Virus record (IMG/VR): IMGVR_UViG_3300037070_003074
Coordinates: 1-24,710 of that record
DNA length: 24,710 bases
Direction: 5' to 3' (one strand)
Origin: a virus
The number at the start of each line of letters is the position of its first letter. Position 1 is the stretch's first letter. Both the position numbers and the translations under genes were made by a program. The notes beneath the pieces were generated by a model. It was not told the origin of the DNA, made no database searches, and was given only the letters and a program-made list of their open reading frames with translations. Positions 3,665-11,935 of this stretch are shown here, one piece after another.

Positions 3665-4032
3665 GCTCGGCTCGCCTTCGTGGCGAGCTCTTGGATGAAG
3701 GCGCCCATCTCGACCTGGCCGCGGACCATGCGCCAGGCCCCGCCGGCCCGGGTGAGGTCATGCCCCCACTGCTCCTGCTCCATCGTGAGCCGGCCACCGG
3801 CGGCCTTCACTTCGACGAACATGACGCCCGCCGTGTCGTGGACGAGGATGACGTCGGGCCAACCTTTGCCGTCACCCTCGACGGCGGTGCGCCACCCGTG
3901 CAGGGTGCGGGCCGGGCGGAAGTGAACGAACCGGTAGTGGAGCCAGCCGCACGCTTCTTTCAGGGTGCGGATCAGGTCGGCTTCTGCGGCGTCGTCGACG
4001 CTCACCACCGCGGTGGCCGGGGTGTCGGTCAC
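3661..4032 (-). CDS. VRR-NUC domain endonuclease
   Basis: 123 residues from GTG 4032 (GTGA overlap with the preceding HTH gene). The VRR-NUC pattern is clear: KGWPDVILV with Asp60, then MFVEVKAAGGRLTMEQEQW with Glu74-x-Lys76 and the Gln-containing helix. VRR-NUC proteins are PD-(D/E)XK nucleases, found as stand-alone phage proteins that cut branched DNA such as Holliday or flap structures. Here it probably resolves replication or recombination intermediates before packaging, in the same operon as the ERF annealing protein. Length is typical for stand-alone phage members. Confidence 0.9.
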   Translation of the reverse strand: MTDTPATAVVSVDDAAEADLIRTLKEACGWLHYRFVHFRPARTLHGWRTAVEGDGKGWPDVILVHDTAGVMFVEVKAAGGRLTMEQEQWGHDLTRAGGAWRMVRGQVEMGAFIQELATKASRA

Positions 4033-4220
4033 GACGCGAGGGTGTTGGCGTCGATGAACGCGGCGAGCTCGTCGTCGCGCACCAGTGTCCGCCGGCCGAT
4101 CTTGACCCGGGACAGGACACCGTCGGCGATCAGCTGCCAGACGAAGCGCTGCGACATGCCGCCGAGCAGGTCGGCGGCGACGGCGACGCTGTGGAGTCGC
4201 ACACTGGCGGCCGCTGGCAT
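4029..4220 (-). CDS. HTH_17 DNA-binding protein, probable excisionase or Cro-like
   Basis: 63 residues from ATG 4220, which has GGAG 6 bases upstream. Upstream in-frame starts at 4235 (ATG) and 4250 (TTG) lack a good ribosome site. The sequence fits HTH_17: SVAVAADLLGGMSQRFVWQLIADG, then basic KIGRRTLVRDDELAAFI. It is divergent from the repressor at 4421 across a 200-base control region and is the first gene of the early leftward operon. That place suits a Cro or Xis role: switching to lytic growth, or directing the integrase towards excision. Which of the two cannot be told from sequence. Confidence 0.75.
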   Translation of the reverse strand: MPAAASVRLHSVAVAADLLGGMSQRFVWQLIADGVLSRVKIGRRTLVRDDELAAFIDANTLAS

Positions 4221-4420
4221 CTCGCTCTCCGACATCCTGCTAACCCCCAACTATCTGGAGTGGCGCCCGCCTTGTGAGCAGGCAAGCAGGTGCAGCCCTG
4301 TGGATACAAGAGGGCGTTTCATGGGGATTAGTTGTTGAACCTGGGGATTGTGCAGGGCCGTTCACGGCCGTGCATGACTGTGCACAAACTCAGCCGGTCG
4401 GTACCGTCATCGGAAGATTC
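4221..4420. promoter_or_regulatory. Divergent control region (lysis-lysogeny switch)
   Basis: A 200-base gap between the leftward early operon and the rightward repressor. It contains TGGGGATT twice at exactly 20-base spacing (4322-4329, 4342-4349) and three GTGCA words (4350-4354, 4370-4374, 4380-4384). The outermost GTGCA words lie in TTGTGCA and TGTGCACAA, giving an imperfect inverted arrangement. These are good operator candidates for the HTH repressor or the HTH_17 protein. No promoter with convincing -35 and -10 boxes could be picked by eye. Confidence 0.5.
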
Positions 4421-4807
4421 ATGCCGACGAGTACCCGCAGAGCCGCGCACCGCGAGATCGCACTAGCAGTGACGGAGCGGCGCGCCTTCTACGGGCTGTC
4501 CCAGATCGAGGCGGCCGAATGGTGCGGGCTCGGAGTCGAGACGTACCGCTCGATCGAGGACCTCACCGGGCAGAGCAAGGCTCGCGTCGAGACGTTGCAC
4601 GGGATAGCCACCGGCCTCCACTTCGAGTTGCGCGAGCTCCTGGAGCTGCAGGCCGGCGAGCAGATCGAGTTGAGCCCACCGGAGCCGCTCACCGTCGAGG
4701 AGCTCGAGCTCGCTGAGCACATCCGGATACTCCGCGGACTCCCGGTCGAGCACCGCCGTCACATCTACCTGATCGCCCATGACATCCGCGAGGCACTGCC
4801 GGGCTAA
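4421..4807 (+). CDS. HTH (XRE-like) repressor, probable immunity repressor
   Basis: 128 residues from ATG 4421 (GGAAG 6 bases upstream); the frame is open back to 4274 but the extension has no HTH or good start. Residues about 10-75 form an XRE-like HTH (EIALAVTERRAFYGLSQIEA, then GLGVETYRSIEDLTGQ, and TLHGIATGLHFELREL). The C-terminus is acidic then helical and has no LexA-type peptidase, so induction by self-cleavage is unlikely. It is one of only two plus-strand genes, is divergent from the early operon, and its stop overlaps the integrase stop by 4 bases (convergent). This is the typical place of a phage repressor; antirepression or autoregulation via 4221-4420 is inferred. Confidence 0.75.
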   Translation: MPTSTRRAAHREIALAVTERRAFYGLSQIEAAEWCGLGVETYRSIEDLTGQSKARVETLHGIATGLHFELRELLELQAGEQIELSPPEPLTVEELELAEHIRILRGLPVEHRRHIYLIAHDIREALPG

Positions 4808-5973
4808 CGGTCGAAGATCGCCGCCTGCATCGCGTCGGCGGCCTCCAGGCGGGCCGGTTCCATGAGGTGCCCGTAGATGTCGGCGGTGACCCGGATCGAG
4901 GAGTGGCCGAGCATCTCCGAGACGACCTTGAGCGGGACGCCCTGGGCGATGAGGATGCTCGCCGCCGAGTGCCGCATGCCGTGCGGCGTCCAGTGTCCGA
5001 GCCCGGCTTCTGCCGCCAGTGTGGTGACGAGACGGGTCGTCTTGTCGGGATCTCGGGGGGTGCCGACCGACGTGGTGAACACCATGTCGTCGAAGGGCCA
5101 GTCACGCGCCCAGCCGGGGCCGTACGCGAGGCGTTCTTCTGCCTGGGTGCTGCGATGCCGGCGCAGGACGTCGGCGACGGCGCGGGGGAGGTGCACCGTA
5201 CGTTCGGAGTCGGCCTTGGCCTGCTCCCAGCACAACGCACCCCGGTCGGCCTTGGCGATGGCACCTGCGACGGTCAGGGTGGCGCGTGGGGCGTCGAGAC
5301 GGATGTCGCGCCACCGCAGGCCGAGCGCCTCACCGCGGCGCAGTCCGAGTCCGAGCAGCACGGTGATGAGCGCGCCGTGGCCTTGGGCCTCGGCGAGTGC
5401 GAGCAGTGAGCGGGCCTCGTCCGGGTCGAGGGTGCCCTTCTTCGGCCGTGGCACCCGGACGCCGTCGACGAGCGCCGCCACGTTGCGGGTGACCAGTCCA
5501 TCGATCTCTGCCGAGCGCAGTGCCCGGCGAAGCACCGAACGGGCGAGGCGCTGGGTGTTGGGGGACAGGCCCCGGCGGGACATCGACGAGAGCATGCGGC
5601 GGACATCGGCGGGGGACAGCGCGGCGACCTCGATGCGTCCGACGGTGGGGTCGATGTAGAGGCGCACGACGTTGGCGTAGTTGGTGGCGGTGCCGGTCCG
5701 CTTGTTCTCGGCCGGCAGGACGTCGGTCAGCCAGTAGGTCATGAACCGTGACACGGTGAGCCCGGCCGGCAGGTCCGGGCTCGCGTTGGCGGCGGTGCGG
5801 AGCTGCTCGAGGCGGTGCTCGACCTCTTCCTGTGTGCGGCCGAACACGGTGCGGCGCCGCCGTGTGCCGGACGTGTCGTAGACGGTGATCTGGCCGACGT
5901 AACGCTGCCGGTCCTCGTTCCACCACACCGAGCCGCGACCGTTGGCGTTGCGTCGCTGGTTGGTCTTCGACAT
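4804..5973 (-). CDS. int: Tyrosine site-specific integrase
   Basis: 389 residues from ATG 5973 with GGAGG 7 bases upstream; an ATG/NTG nine codons earlier (6000) lacks a ribosome site and overlaps an attP arm repeat. N-terminal arm-binding domain (GSVWWNEDRQRYVGQITV, residues 14-31), SAM-like core-binding domain (about 70-155), and C-terminal catalytic domain with Arg212 (GLRRGE), Lys253, His331-x-x-Arg334 (HGMRH), His357 (LGHSS) and nucleophile Tyr367 (IYGH). All catalytic residues are present, so it should be active. It acts on the attP just upstream; the arm repeats at 5991-6010 sit in its 5' leader, so integrase binding may repress its own gene. It converges with the repressor (4-base overlap). 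Confidence 0.97.
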   Translation of the reverse strand: MSKTNQRRNANGRGSVWWNEDRQRYVGQITVYDTSGTRRRRTVFGRTQEEVEHRLEQLRTAANASPDLPAGLTVSRFMTYWLTDVLPAENKRTGTATNYANVVRLYIDPTVGRIEVAALSPADVRRMLSSMSRRGLSPNTQRLARSVLRRALRSAEIDGLVTRNVAALVDGVRVPRPKKGTLDPDEARSLLALAEAQGHGALITVLLGLGLRRGEALGLRWRDIRLDAPRATLTVAGAIAKADRGALCWEQAKADSERTVHLPRAVADVLRRHRSTQAEERLAYGPGWARDWPFDDMVFTTSVGTPRDPDKTTRLVTTLAAEAGLGHWTPHGMRHSAASILIAQGVPLKVVSEMLGHSSIRVTADIYGHLMEPARLEAADAMQAAIFDR

Positions 5974-5990: not shown

Positions 5991-6010
5991 TGTTAGCCAA
6001 CTGTTAGCCA
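5991..6010 (+). repeat. Integrase arm-type sites, P arm (two TGTTAGCCA copies)
   Basis: TGTTAGCCA occurs at 5991-5999 and 6002-6010, 11 bases apart in the same orientation. The same nine bases recur as a pair on the other side of the tRNA-like core. Paired direct repeats flanking the core are the known layout of arm-binding sites for two-domain tyrosine integrases such as those of lambda and L5. They overlap the upstream region of int. Confidence 0.85.
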
Positions 6011-6046
6011 CGGGGGTCCGCAGGCGTGTTCACCAGTATGCACGCT

Positions 6047-6111
6047 GGTGCACTGAATAGTGGCCGCACCCTGGCAGTTTGTCTCTGCATGGACCGGCAC
6101 CACAGTGCACC
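6047..6111. repeat. 9-bp inverted repeat in the attP P arm
   Basis: GGTGCACTG (6047-6055) and CAGTGCACC (6103-6111) are perfect inverted copies between the P-arm sites and the core. CACCAG/CTGGTG at 6031-6036/6045-6050 forms a second small inverted repeat. The GTGCAC word also appears in the repressor control region (4380-4385). These may bind the excisionase/HTH_17 protein or a host bending factor; no direct evidence. Confidence 0.5.
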
Positions 6112-6119
6112 GGATTCCG

Positions 6120-6161
6120 CTGGGGGTCAAGAGGTCGGGAGTTCGAATCTCCCCAGCCCGA
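6120..6161 (+). other. attP core: 3' half of a tRNA-Pro(GGG) gene
   Basis: Reading + strand: CTGGGGG fits an anticodon loop (U33, anticodon GGG, G37), then TCAAG (3' anticodon stem), AGGTC (variable loop), GGGAG-TTCGAAT-CTCCC (perfect T-arm, 6137-6153), CAGCCCG (3' acceptor strand) and A73 at 6161. No CCA is encoded. The bases before 6120 do not pair with TCAAG, so the 5' half is missing. Phages that integrate in tRNA genes carry this 3' part to restore the gene, with identity usually starting in the anticodon loop. The predicted attB is a host tRNA-Pro(GGG) gene with acceptor 5' strand CGGGCTG. Confidence 0.9.
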
Positions 6162-6220
6162 CGAGAAAAGTCCTGCTAGATGGCAGTGACGACGAGGGTC
6201 GGCCCCCAGGTGGAGCCCAC

Positions 6221-6241
6221 TGTTAGCCACGGTGTTAGCCA
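6221..6241 (+). repeat. Integrase arm-type sites, P' arm (two TGTTAGCCA copies)
   Basis: TGTTAGCCA at 6221-6229 and 6233-6241, 12 bases apart, both followed by CGG, in the same orientation as the P-arm pair. They lie about 60-80 bases beyond the tRNA 3' end and 120 bases before the lipoprotein gene. Together with the pair at 5991-6010 they bracket the core almost symmetrically. Confidence 0.85.
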
Positions 6242-6295
6242 CGGGTTCGTCAATCTTGATGAAACCGCGTTCGGCTACCGGCCGGTAACGTCAGC

Positions 6296-6362: not shown

Positions 6363-6926
6363 ATGAACCTGAAACTGACCATACCGATCGCCGCTGCGGC
6401 GCTGGGATTGCTCGCCGGCTGCGGCAACGCCGGTGAGGCTGCCGGCGTACGGGACCCGGACACGACCGGGTCTGCCACCACCGATGCCGTGTCCGTCGAC
6501 AGCCTCGAAGCCGCTCACGCGCAGTGCACCGGCGACAGCGCGAAGGCCGAGCTCGCCGCACGCCACGACGAAGTCGGCACCATCTTCCGCGACGTGTTGA
6601 AGATCACCGCTGACGGCGAGGGTCTGACTCGTGATCAGTTCATCGACCAGGTCATGGCGGAGATGTACAACGCCGACGAGCAGACGCTGACGATCTACGG
6701 CGCGTACGGCGCGGACAGCGACTACGGGATGACCGAGAGCGGGCTGCTGGCCGGCATCGTCTATGACTGCGCGCTCGACGCGTTGGCGATCCCGGAGCGA
6801 GTGCTCGACCACATCGGCACGACCCGGGCGCTGGACGGCCAGCAGGAGGACAGCTGGGATGACTATCAGGCCCGCTGGACGTATCACCCCGATCACGGGG
6901 TGAACCTGACGATCTGGACCGACTAG
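6363..6926 (+). CDS. Secreted lipoprotein, probable lysogenic-conversion gene
   Basis: 187 residues from ATG 6363 with AGGAG 7 bases upstream. Type II signal peptide: Lys near the N-terminus, hydrophobic run, lipobox LAGC with Cys20. The mature part has Cys55 and Cys136 (possible disulfide). Its C-terminal TTRALDGQQ...WTYHPDHGVNLTIW resembles small lipoproteins of actinobacteria (recalled family resemblance, no search). It is on the plus strand, against the late operon, and beside attP; that place is typical for genes expressed in the lysogen. Surface lipoproteins of prophages often block superinfection, so that role is a reasonable guess. It converges with the transglycosylase gene, 8 bases apart. 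Confidence 0.85.
   Translation: MNLKLTIPIAAAALGLLAGCGNAGEAAGVRDPDTTGSATTDAVSVDSLEAAHAQCTGDSAKAELAARHDEVGTIFRDVLKITADGEGLTRDQFIDQVMAEMYNADEQTLTIYGAYGADSDYGMTESGLLAGIVYDCALDALAIPERVLDHIGTTRALDGQQEDSWDDYQARWTYHPDHGVNLTIWTD
6884..6903 (-). terminator. Candidate late-operon terminator hairpin
   Basis: TCACCCCG (6884-6891) and CGGGGTGA (6896-6903) form a perfect 8-bp stem with loop ATCA. It lies inside the 3' end of the lipoprotein gene, but on the minus strand it is about 32 bases after the stop of the last late gene (6935), where a terminator is expected. No T-run is present. Confidence 0.45.
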
Positions 6927-9214: not shown

Positions 9215-10221
9215 GTCGACACCTCCATCCCCATGCGGAGCGCGTTGACGTCGGCGATGGTGAATTGGGAGCCGTCGCCTTTGCGTTCGAACACGGCGCG
9301 CAGCTCACCGAACGATGTGGGGAGGCCGAGGTCGGCGGATTGACGGACGGTCCCGCCGGATCCCTCTTTGACGCAGAGTTTCGCGGTGCGGGTGCCGGCG
9401 TCGGTCTTTTGGGCGACGGCGGCGACGACGACGCCGTACACCGGTGACGTGGTCGCCCTGGCCGACGCCGCGGGGGTGTAGAGGTCGCGTTGCCCGATGG
9501 TGGATGAGGCGACGTAGTCGGCGCCGTTGTAGGCGCCGGCCTCGTCGACGAGCGCCCAGTTGTCGGTGGAGTTGCCGTCGGAGCCGAGCCATTGGGCGGT
9601 GTCGTCGACGGCGGGGCGGAGGTGTTCGACGGTGAGCTCGCCGAGGAAGTTGTTGTTCACCGAGCCGGTGGTATCGGCGAGGTAGACGTCGTCCCAGGCG
9701 TTGGCAGTGACGCCGGCCGCTCCGCCGCCGACCCCGCCGCCGAGCACGACCAGGGCCGTGGTGGTAGCCGAGCCGTCCTTGGTGTCGAGACCGGACAGGT
9801 TCAACACCTCGACCCCGTTGACCCGGACGACGACTGTGCCGGTCGTGTCGTGGATCGTGATCTTCGCTTCGACGTACGACCAGGCGGCGGCGGGAAGAAC
9901 GTTGACGGCGGACGTGCCGAGAACGTTGGAGGTCGAGGTGCGGTAGGCGATGATCTCGCCGCTCGCCCCGCGGGTCAGTCCGACGTGGAGCCCTGCGCTC
10001 GACACTGTGGCGTGGAACTGGACGAACCCGCCGGCGCCGGCCGGTTTGAACGCGAACCCGACGATGATCGGGCCGGCCGTGGCGGTGAATCCGAGTTCGG
10101 CCCGGCCGGCGGCGGTGCCGGCGACCAGTCCGTTCCCGAACCGTCCGGTGCCGAGCGCCGAGTTCGACAGTGTCCAGGGCGTGGTGCCGTCCTCGAACCC
10201 GTCAGCGAACAGGAGTGCCAT
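9211..10221 (-). CDS. Minor tail protein with LamG/concanavalin-like domain
   Basis: 336 residues from ATG 10221 (TGATG overlap with the fibre gene). The start [16 protein letters not shown] is the typical opening of phage jelly-roll lectin-like domains. It is followed by alternating beta-rich segments (AAAWSYVEAKITIHDTTGTVVVRVNG..., NAWDDVYLADTTG) for about 170 residues, then a second beta-rich part to the end. Likely a carbohydrate-binding receptor protein at the tail tip (inference from fold and place). Open reading upstream to 10755 is a shadow of the collagen gene. Confidence 0.8.
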   Translation of the reverse strand: MALLFADGFEDGTTPWTLSNSALGTGRFGNGLVAGTAAGRAELGFTATAGPIIVGFAFKPAGAGGFVQFHATVSSAGLHVGLTRGASGEIIAYRTSTSNVLGTSAVNVLPAAAWSYVEAKITIHDTTGTVVVRVNGVEVLNLSGLDTKDGSATTTALVVLGGGVGGGAAGVTANAWDDVYLADTTGSVNNNFLGELTVEHLRPAVDDTAQWLGSDGNSTDNWALVDEAGAYNGADYVASSTIGQRDLYTPAASARATTSPVYGVVVAAVAQKTDAGTRTAKLCVKEGSGGTVRQSADLGLPTSFGELRAVFERKGDGSQFTIADVNALRMGMEVST

Positions 10222-11516
10222 CAGGCCTCGATCCAGATTGCGCCGACGGGGATGGTTGCCAGCCCGTAGTCGGCGGCAGTCGGCTGGGTGGCTTTGACGA
10301 CGATCGGTGTCAGGTCGGCGAGCAGGGCGTGGTTGGCGAGCGACGCCGGGGAAACAGCCAAGTTGAGGGCGGCGTGGGCGTCGGCGTCGGCGGTGGCGAC
10401 GGTGAGACGGACGACACCGGGGACCGAGTCGGTGGCGGTCGGGAGGGTCTGGAACGTGGCGGCGTAGTTGGTGGCCGACGTCTTCGTCAGGACCTGGCCG
10501 GTGGTGCCACCAGTGGGCAGCCCGACCGGTGTCGGCGACAGGATGCCGATCATCGTCCGGGCGCCCTTGGTGACCGACCCGGAGGTGACCGACACCGGGA
10601 TCGTGTAGTAGGTGCCGGAATCCACGGGGGCGCCGGTGATGAGCAGATCCATCGACGTGCCGTTGGCGGCCCGCACGAGGATCGTGTCGCCGGCTTCCGC
10701 GGTGGAGAGCCCACCGGCCCGGTTCATCCCGTCGGTGTCGACCTCGGCGACCCACAACGTGGTGATGCCGGCGTCGGATCTGATCTGCCCGTTCGACGGT
10801 GGCGCAGACGTGTTCGACGCGTACGTCCAGAACGCCGACAGCAGCGCCCCGCCGGGCTCACCGGGATCGCCCTGGGGCCCGGTGGCCCCGGTGGGGCCTT
10901 GGATGCCTTGGATCCCTTGGGCGCCGGTGACACCCTGGATCCCTTGGCTGCCGGTCGCCCCCGTCGAGCCTGTCGCCCCGGTCGGGCCTTGCGGGCCGAC
11001 GATCTGGCCGACGTCGAGCCATGCGCTGCCGGTCGACGTGTGCAGGTTGCCGTCGGCGGTGACGATGTACGAGTCACCGACCGCCACCGAGCCCGGCGCC
11101 GGCAACGCCCCGACGGTGGCGACCTCGCCGATGATGCGGGTGCTGGTCCCCGGGTTCCCTTGCACGCCTTGGCTGCCCGTTGCACCGGTCGCCCCGGTGG
11201 CACCGGTGACACCTTGGATGCCTTGGGGGCCTTGTTCGCCTTGGACGCCTTGCGGTCCTTCGGGTCCGGTGGGGCCGGGGATGCCTTGGGGGCCTTGGAC
11301 GTTGCCGGCGTTCGTCCATTCGTCACCGGTCCACACCCACAGGTCACCGCCGATGATGTAGCCGTCGCCCGGGTTGTTGCCGACCGGGGGCAGGTCGGCG
11401 GGGTCGGCGAGCTCACCCTTCAACGTGAGCCCGGCACCGGGTGGGCCTTGGACGGGGATGAATCCGTCGACGACCGACACCAGCTCGACCTCTTCGACGG
11501 TGACCAGGTCACTCAT
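10221..11516 (-). CDS. Collagen-like tail fibre
   Basis: 431 residues from ATG 11516 (ATGA overlap). Two collagen-like Gly-x-y blocks, about residues 74-123 and 174-223, with frequent GPQG, GATG and GIQG triplets. Each block is preceded by a similar 45-residue module: [11 protein letters not shown]...[18 protein letters not shown] (34-67) and [11 protein letters not shown]...[20 protein letters not shown] (130-166). The remaining 200 residues are beta-rich with a small C-terminal domain. Collagen blocks in phage fibres trimerise and hold the receptor-binding part away from the tail. The block-plus-module duplication probably arose by unequal crossing-over. Confidence 0.9.
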
Positions 11517-11935
11517 GACGCACCGTCCTCGACGGTGAAGATGCCGCGGATCAGGCAGCGGGTGACGGCGTCGGTGTTGGTGGCGACGATGTCCCAATTC
11601 CCCGACCGTTCCGCGATGCCGGTCCAGACGCCGTGGGGGAGGAACACGACGACCTGGCCGAGCAGGTAGCCGTCCAAGTCGATGAACCCGGCCGGATCCG
11701 CCGGGTCCGTCGAGTCGATGGTGTGACGCACCGGGTCCGGATCCGGCAACGGCTCACCGGTGTCAGGGTCGAACAAGGTGGGTTGCAGGTCGAACTCGAG
11801 GCTGCACACCGCGGAGACGACTTCGACCGGGGTGCCGTCGACCTTGACCCAGACGGCGCCGAACGTCTGGTCCGAGTTGGTGCGGAACGACAGGTCGCGG
11901 CGGGCCGGCATGTCGGTGACGTAGGGGCGCAGCAT
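11513..11935 (-). CDS. Tail-associated protein, possibly BppU-like baseplate domain
   Basis: 140 residues from ATG 11935 (TGATG overlap). The N-terminal segment ([30 protein letters not shown]) has the look of small Ig-like/BppU N-terminal domains that join fibres to the baseplate: a short basic run, then [14 protein letters not shown]. An acidic Pro/Asp-rich loop lies at about 75-105. It precedes the collagen fibre gene, so it may be the fibre's attachment protein. The assignment is tentative; only context and the short motif support it. Confidence 0.6.

Follow-up and report, generated by a model that had tools for sequence, protein, structure and literature searches.

Directly upstream of a tyrosine integrase gene, the window (the whole stretch of DNA analysed here, an entire IMG/VR virus record of 24,710 bp) carries the 3′ half of a tRNA-Pro gene between pairs of short repeats. 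The question raised by this locus is whether it is an intact phage attachment site (attP) and, if so, which bacterial gene the phage would enter. Sequence comparison makes it very probable, in our judgment, that a temperate actinophage with a lambda-type integrase has its intact attP here, with a tRNA-Pro(GGG) target and two pairs of putative arm-type sites.

The record is a linear contig in which terminal repeats are absent. Along the minus strand, the gene order is terminase-like, portal, prohead protease, capsid, tail, lysis, att region, integrase (5973-4804), a small HTH protein, and then recombination/replication genes (VRR-NUC, methyltransferase, and Erf-like). One protein of the tail region (10221-11597, minus strand) contains collagen-like Gly-X-Y repeats (PF01391, 6e-15). 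A host gene was recognised nowhere in the 24,710-bp window. We considered a prophage end (attL or attR) and rejected it because phage genes flank the site on both sides. The original prediction had assigned the attP to a free or circular genome; the flanking phage genes agree with this, but the free or circular state is read only from gene order on a partial contig, and a linear record without a terminal repeat does not demonstrate a “circular” genome. The features on which the argument draws are the following.

4029..4250, minus strand: candidate excisionase, 73 aa (HTH_17, 3.7e-7; excise TIGR01764, 2.8e-5, below the curated cut-off)
4274..4807, plus strand: candidate repressor with HTH (phrog_5823 transcriptional regulator, 3.6e-5)
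4804..5973, minus strand: tyrosine integrase, 389 aa (Phage_integrase, 4.6e-26; PHROG 1, 1.7e-61; alignment; model and PDB matches)
5991..5999, plus strand: putative arm-type site P1 (TGTTAGCCA), an exact repeat starting 11 bp before P2
6002..6013, plus strand: putative arm-type site P2 (TGTTAGCCACGG), an exact repeat; 109 bp from the end of its 9-bp unit to the core
6120..6162, plus strand: attP core, tRNA-Pro(GGG) from nt 32 through its 3′ end and one further C; identity to host tRNA-Pro(ggg) genes extends over 43-45 bp
6120..6126, plus strand: presumed 7-bp overlap (crossover) region, the anticodon loop CTGGGGG with anticodon GGG
6221..6232, plus strand: putative arm-type site P′1 (TGTTAGCCACGG), an exact repeat; a second pair is also confirmed in the element of genome G028
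6233..6244, plus strand: putative arm-type site P′2 (TGTTAGCCACGG), an exact repeat
6363..6926, plus strand: lipoprotein-like gene (signal peptide and LLAGC lipobox, both read from the sequence)

In the window as a whole, ARAGORN finds no complete tRNA gene, so the tRNA-Pro sequence at 6120-6162 is a fragment. Positions 6120-6161 begin in the anticodon loop, as originally predicted; they equal tRNA-Pro(GGG) from nt 32, where that loop starts, up to the discriminator base, and the match to host genes is usually 1 bp longer, reaching 6162. The left edge of the attP/attB identity falls at 6120 in almost all host copies. By analogy with lambda-type integrases, from which the length of 7 bp is taken, the overlap would coincide with CTGGGGG. 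A scan of the att region for sigma-70 promoters gave no match.

The integrase gene starts with an ATG at 5973 and has a GGAGG ribosome-binding site directly upstream. All of its catalytic residues are conserved in the alignment (R212, K252, an HxxR motif ending at R334, H357, and Y367), and an intact integrase adjoining the tRNA fragment is the arrangement of a tRNA-targeting attP. In the AlphaFold model (mean pLDDT 87), residues 15-63 form a three-stranded sheet and a helix, followed by core-binding and catalytic domains, and this modelled N-terminal domain is predicted to be of the arm-binding type. The closest solved structures are those of lambda Int, matched as the full-length protein, and Tn1549 Int. 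The candidate repressor gene (4274..4807) is transcribed away from the xis-like gene and toward int.

The target was sought by comparing the 38-base core stretch 6124-6161 with one genome per species in GTDB (84,980 species). Thirty-seven stretches of genome DNA contain it without a mismatch, and all those named below phylum belong to Acidimicrobiia (Acidimicrobiales, Ilumatobacteraceae, Microthrixaceae, and Acidimicrobiaceae), the few remaining ones being titled just Actinomycetota, actinobacterium, or bacterium. In nearly all 37 stretches the match starts at 6120 and covers 43-45 bp, and most of these loci yield an ARAGORN call of tRNA-Pro(ggg). Of the core copies, roughly three quarters are intact tRNA-Pro(GGG) genes and the rest are displaced 3′ fragments. 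The predicted target is thereby confirmed in bacterial genomes, and the prediction survives the danger, named when it was made, that no plausible host would have a matching tRNA-Pro. The exact 42-mer occurs in 10 of 395 sampled Acidimicrobiia genomes and hence marks a subset of the class. An actinobacterial host had been proposed, which is consistent with these results and can be narrowed to Acidimicrobiia, a little-studied and mostly uncultured actinobacterial class; this putative host assignment is based on the attachment core together with the integrase.

Relatives of the integrase in Acidimicrobiia reach 46-47% identity. Among the best matches listed, isolate-phage integrases are at most 31% identical over most of the protein, and an even sample of the phylum, beyond the genomes already seen, gives matches of at most 40%. 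A pattern search of IMG/VR returned no relatives of the integrase, an exact search of IMG/VR with the core returned no other viral contig, and BLAST of the core against isolate phages gave only short or 81-85% tRNA-like matches. Virion genes give no independent pointer to Acidimicrobiia: the portal, tried as a host marker, was uninformative, its best relative being 39% identical in the 395 Acidimicrobiia genomes versus 51% in mycobacteriophage MooMoo (one portal search was too strict and uncalibrated), and the portal comparison found no prophage close to this phage among those 395 sampled genomes. Our search of the open-licence literature found no paper on Acidimicrobiia prophage attachment sites.

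Nine exact copies of the core are without the tRNA 5′ half (L005, L006, L015, L016, L018, L022, L024, and L033 twice). Seven of the nine depart from the tRNA sequence at the first anticodon-loop base or one base earlier, and in the other two (L022 and L024) the lesion lies inside the anticodon loop; judged by sequence, integrated elements left all nine behind as displaced 3′ fragments. A rebuilt tRNA together with a displaced fragment is seen for other elements at tRNA-Pro(GGG), 17.7 kb apart in G002 and 13.4 kb apart in G203 with islands between, and both islands have repeats on both arms, ATGTATG-type in G002 and CGTGCCACG-type in G203. Integrated elements are therefore present at the very gene where the original prediction proposed looking for prophages, and these comparisons are evidence for tRNA-Pro(GGG) as a putative repeatedly used integration gene. 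In the CAMYLA MAG (Acidimicrobiaceae; L017, L006, and L033), a single tRNA-Pro(GGG) gene is accompanied by three displaced fragments, of which two are separated by 2 kb; this suggests repeated integration at one gene.

The two pairs of repeats reported around the core (5991/6002 and 6221/6233) are confirmed as exact copies of TGTTAGCCA, and the rest of the window holds one copy only, with 1 mismatch. Three of the four copies extend to TGTTAGCCACGG. This is the sole 9-mer of the whole window with four copies inside 260 bp, and dinucleotide shuffling of the 251-bp segment, repeated 20,000 times, yielded no four-copy 9-mer. Measured from the int ATG, P1/P2 lie 18-37 bp upstream, bordering the ribosome-binding site of int, and candidate arm sites are repeated on both sides of the core, the arrangement of a lambda-type bivalent integrase.

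The closest integrase relatives (G069 and G028; about 46% identity) have a tRNA-Pro(GGG) fragment from position 32 upstream of int, as in the window. Directly upstream of int they have repeat pairs of their own with 12-bp spacing, AGGGGGGCAAC in L051 and GGGGGACCTA in L052, and the gap between pair and core is 103 bp and 106 bp, respectively, versus 109 bp in the window; a pair analogous to P1/P2 occupies the same place in L051, L052, L041, and L054. If these are true arm sites, then a second pair should stand at the element's other end, and this prediction was tested. In G028, a 4-Mb genome, the pattern GGGGACCTN{2,5}GGGGACCT has just two occurrences, C99:1386-1405 and C99:5997-6016, and these pairs sit directly inside the cores at 1235 and 6087, i.e., at both ends of one element. 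In G069 one pair was found, and the contig is cut there. Ten of the 14 distal cores other than the window's have an upstream repeat pair, versus 4% of random stretches, where a pair is an exact repeat of at least 8 bp with 10-13 bp spacing, 40-180 bp upstream, and the loci are not all independent. In relatives, then, the repeats appear to behave as arm-type sites, which lends comparative support to the arm-site reading first proposed for the window.

Repeat pairs are frequent, not universal, in the integrase family: pairs of at least 9 bp lie directly upstream of int for 11 of 27 integrases (the window's included), 14 of the 27 show no repeat run of 7 or more, and several relatives have int on the opposite side of the core. 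The relatives in Acidimicrobiia adjoin tRNA-Pro, Lys, Val, Arg, Leu, and Met genes, and those beside tRNAs other than Pro (L053, L055, L057, L066, and L072) indicate that target choice switches within the family.

One locus, L096 (G028:C99, 1235-6128), is an element of 4.85 kb bounded by two tRNA-Pro cores. It encodes an integrase that shares 45% identity with that of the window, and it also has an HTH gene and a replication-like gene, virion genes not being evident; from its gene content it is possibly a phage satellite. The repeat pair of a second element (GAGGTGACCAAC) lies directly before the outer core of L096, which suggests a tandem array. Such tandem use of tRNA-Pro among relatives, and the linearity of a contig without terminal repeats, would also fit a window derived from two prophages in tandem, or from a concatemer replicating within a host chromosome, in which case the attP would be intact and the genome not free or circular. 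We consider this improbable, given that phage genes stand on both sides and that no host gene is recognised in the window.

The TGTTAGCCA repeats might instead be operators, serving a repressor or Int autoregulation, and not recombination arms, a reading to which we give even less chance. P1/P2 adjoin the int ribosome-binding site, so bound Int could repress int, but the other pair is on the far side of the core, and the pairs seen in relatives stand at both att ends of integrated elements; operator and arm roles are in any case compatible and can coexist. It is hardly credible that the tRNA fragment was left over from some earlier integration and that the working attP is elsewhere, for although tyrosine recombinase islands often leave displaced fragments, this core shows no damage along its 43 bp, neighbours an intact int, has symmetric paired repeats, and belongs to a layout kept in independent relatives.

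For the preferred reading, an intact attP of the lambda type, a mechanism can be proposed from what is observed: the attP sequence itself, the precise target gene found in genomes, displaced 3′ fragments, and the way repeat pairs are spaced in relatives. Int would bind P1/P2 and P′1/P′2 through its N-terminal domain and the surroundings of CTGGGGG through its core-binding and catalytic domains, and its bridging of arm and core sites would bring attP to the host tRNA-Pro(GGG) gene. If the site is active, as we infer, strand exchange within the 7-bp anticodon loop, whose exact cleavage points would follow the lambda-type pattern only presumptively, would insert the phage. The 42 nt carried by the phage would restore the tRNA on the P′ side, and the 3′ part native to the host would be displaced beyond int. 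On the prophage map, the tRNA would be followed by the P′ arm and the lipoprotein gene (6363-6926), with int and the P arm at the distal fragment. The small HTH protein (4029-4250) next to int is probably the excisionase, and Int bound at P1/P2 may also lower int expression because these sites border the int ribosome-binding site. The lipoprotein-like gene is the lone plus-strand gene beside attP; its protein has no Pfam or NCBIfam match, and no informative relatives were found. Given its place after the rebuilt tRNA in the prophage, it may be a lysogenic-conversion gene.

It is conceivable, though we lean toward doubting it, that tRNA-Pro(GGG) is a class-wide docking gene of Acidimicrobiia for phages, islands, and small satellites. 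These elements would have in common the core and the geometry (pair spacing 11-12 bp, about 105 bp from the core), and the element-specific arm sequence would be a private code letting tandem neighbours excise independently. The 43-bp exact target ties a metagenomic phage to the class Acidimicrobiia, and int with attP is a candidate cassette with a defined target for bacteria poor in genetic tools. Integrases with a common core but differing arm sequences also provide a set for decoding arm recognition.

Set beside known systems, the window shares paired direct arm sites and a tRNA target with L5, which differs in having additional arm sites and a different tRNA, tRNA-Gly. Direct paired arm sites surround the core of the L5 attP, two pairs of 11-bp arm-type sites surround that of CrimD (Cluster K1) on the 5′ side of int, and the putative arm sites of Giles come in direct-orientation pairs (PMC3203893). 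CrimD thus resembles the window in its two flanking arm-site pairs and an attP 5′ of int, but its core is the 3′ end of tmRNA and its right-hand pair is inverted, whereas the window has tRNA-Pro and four direct sites. Giles has a tyrosine integrase about 29% identical to the window's and a core that is likewise a tRNA-Pro(GGG) 3′ fragment, containing GACTGGGGGTCAAG; its core, however, lies downstream of int where the window's lies upstream, and the host class differs. Anticodon-loop sites were found in 2083 of 3919 mapped Islander-type tRNA islands (PMC4383910), which are like the window in having the crossover in the anticodon loop and unlike it in being integrated islands, where the window has an attP flanked on either side by phage genes. 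This attP is an ordinary lambda-type one of the anticodon-loop kind, as in Giles, L5, and CrimD, and what is added here is the host class, the tested arm-site prediction, and the evidence for a repeatedly used tRNA.
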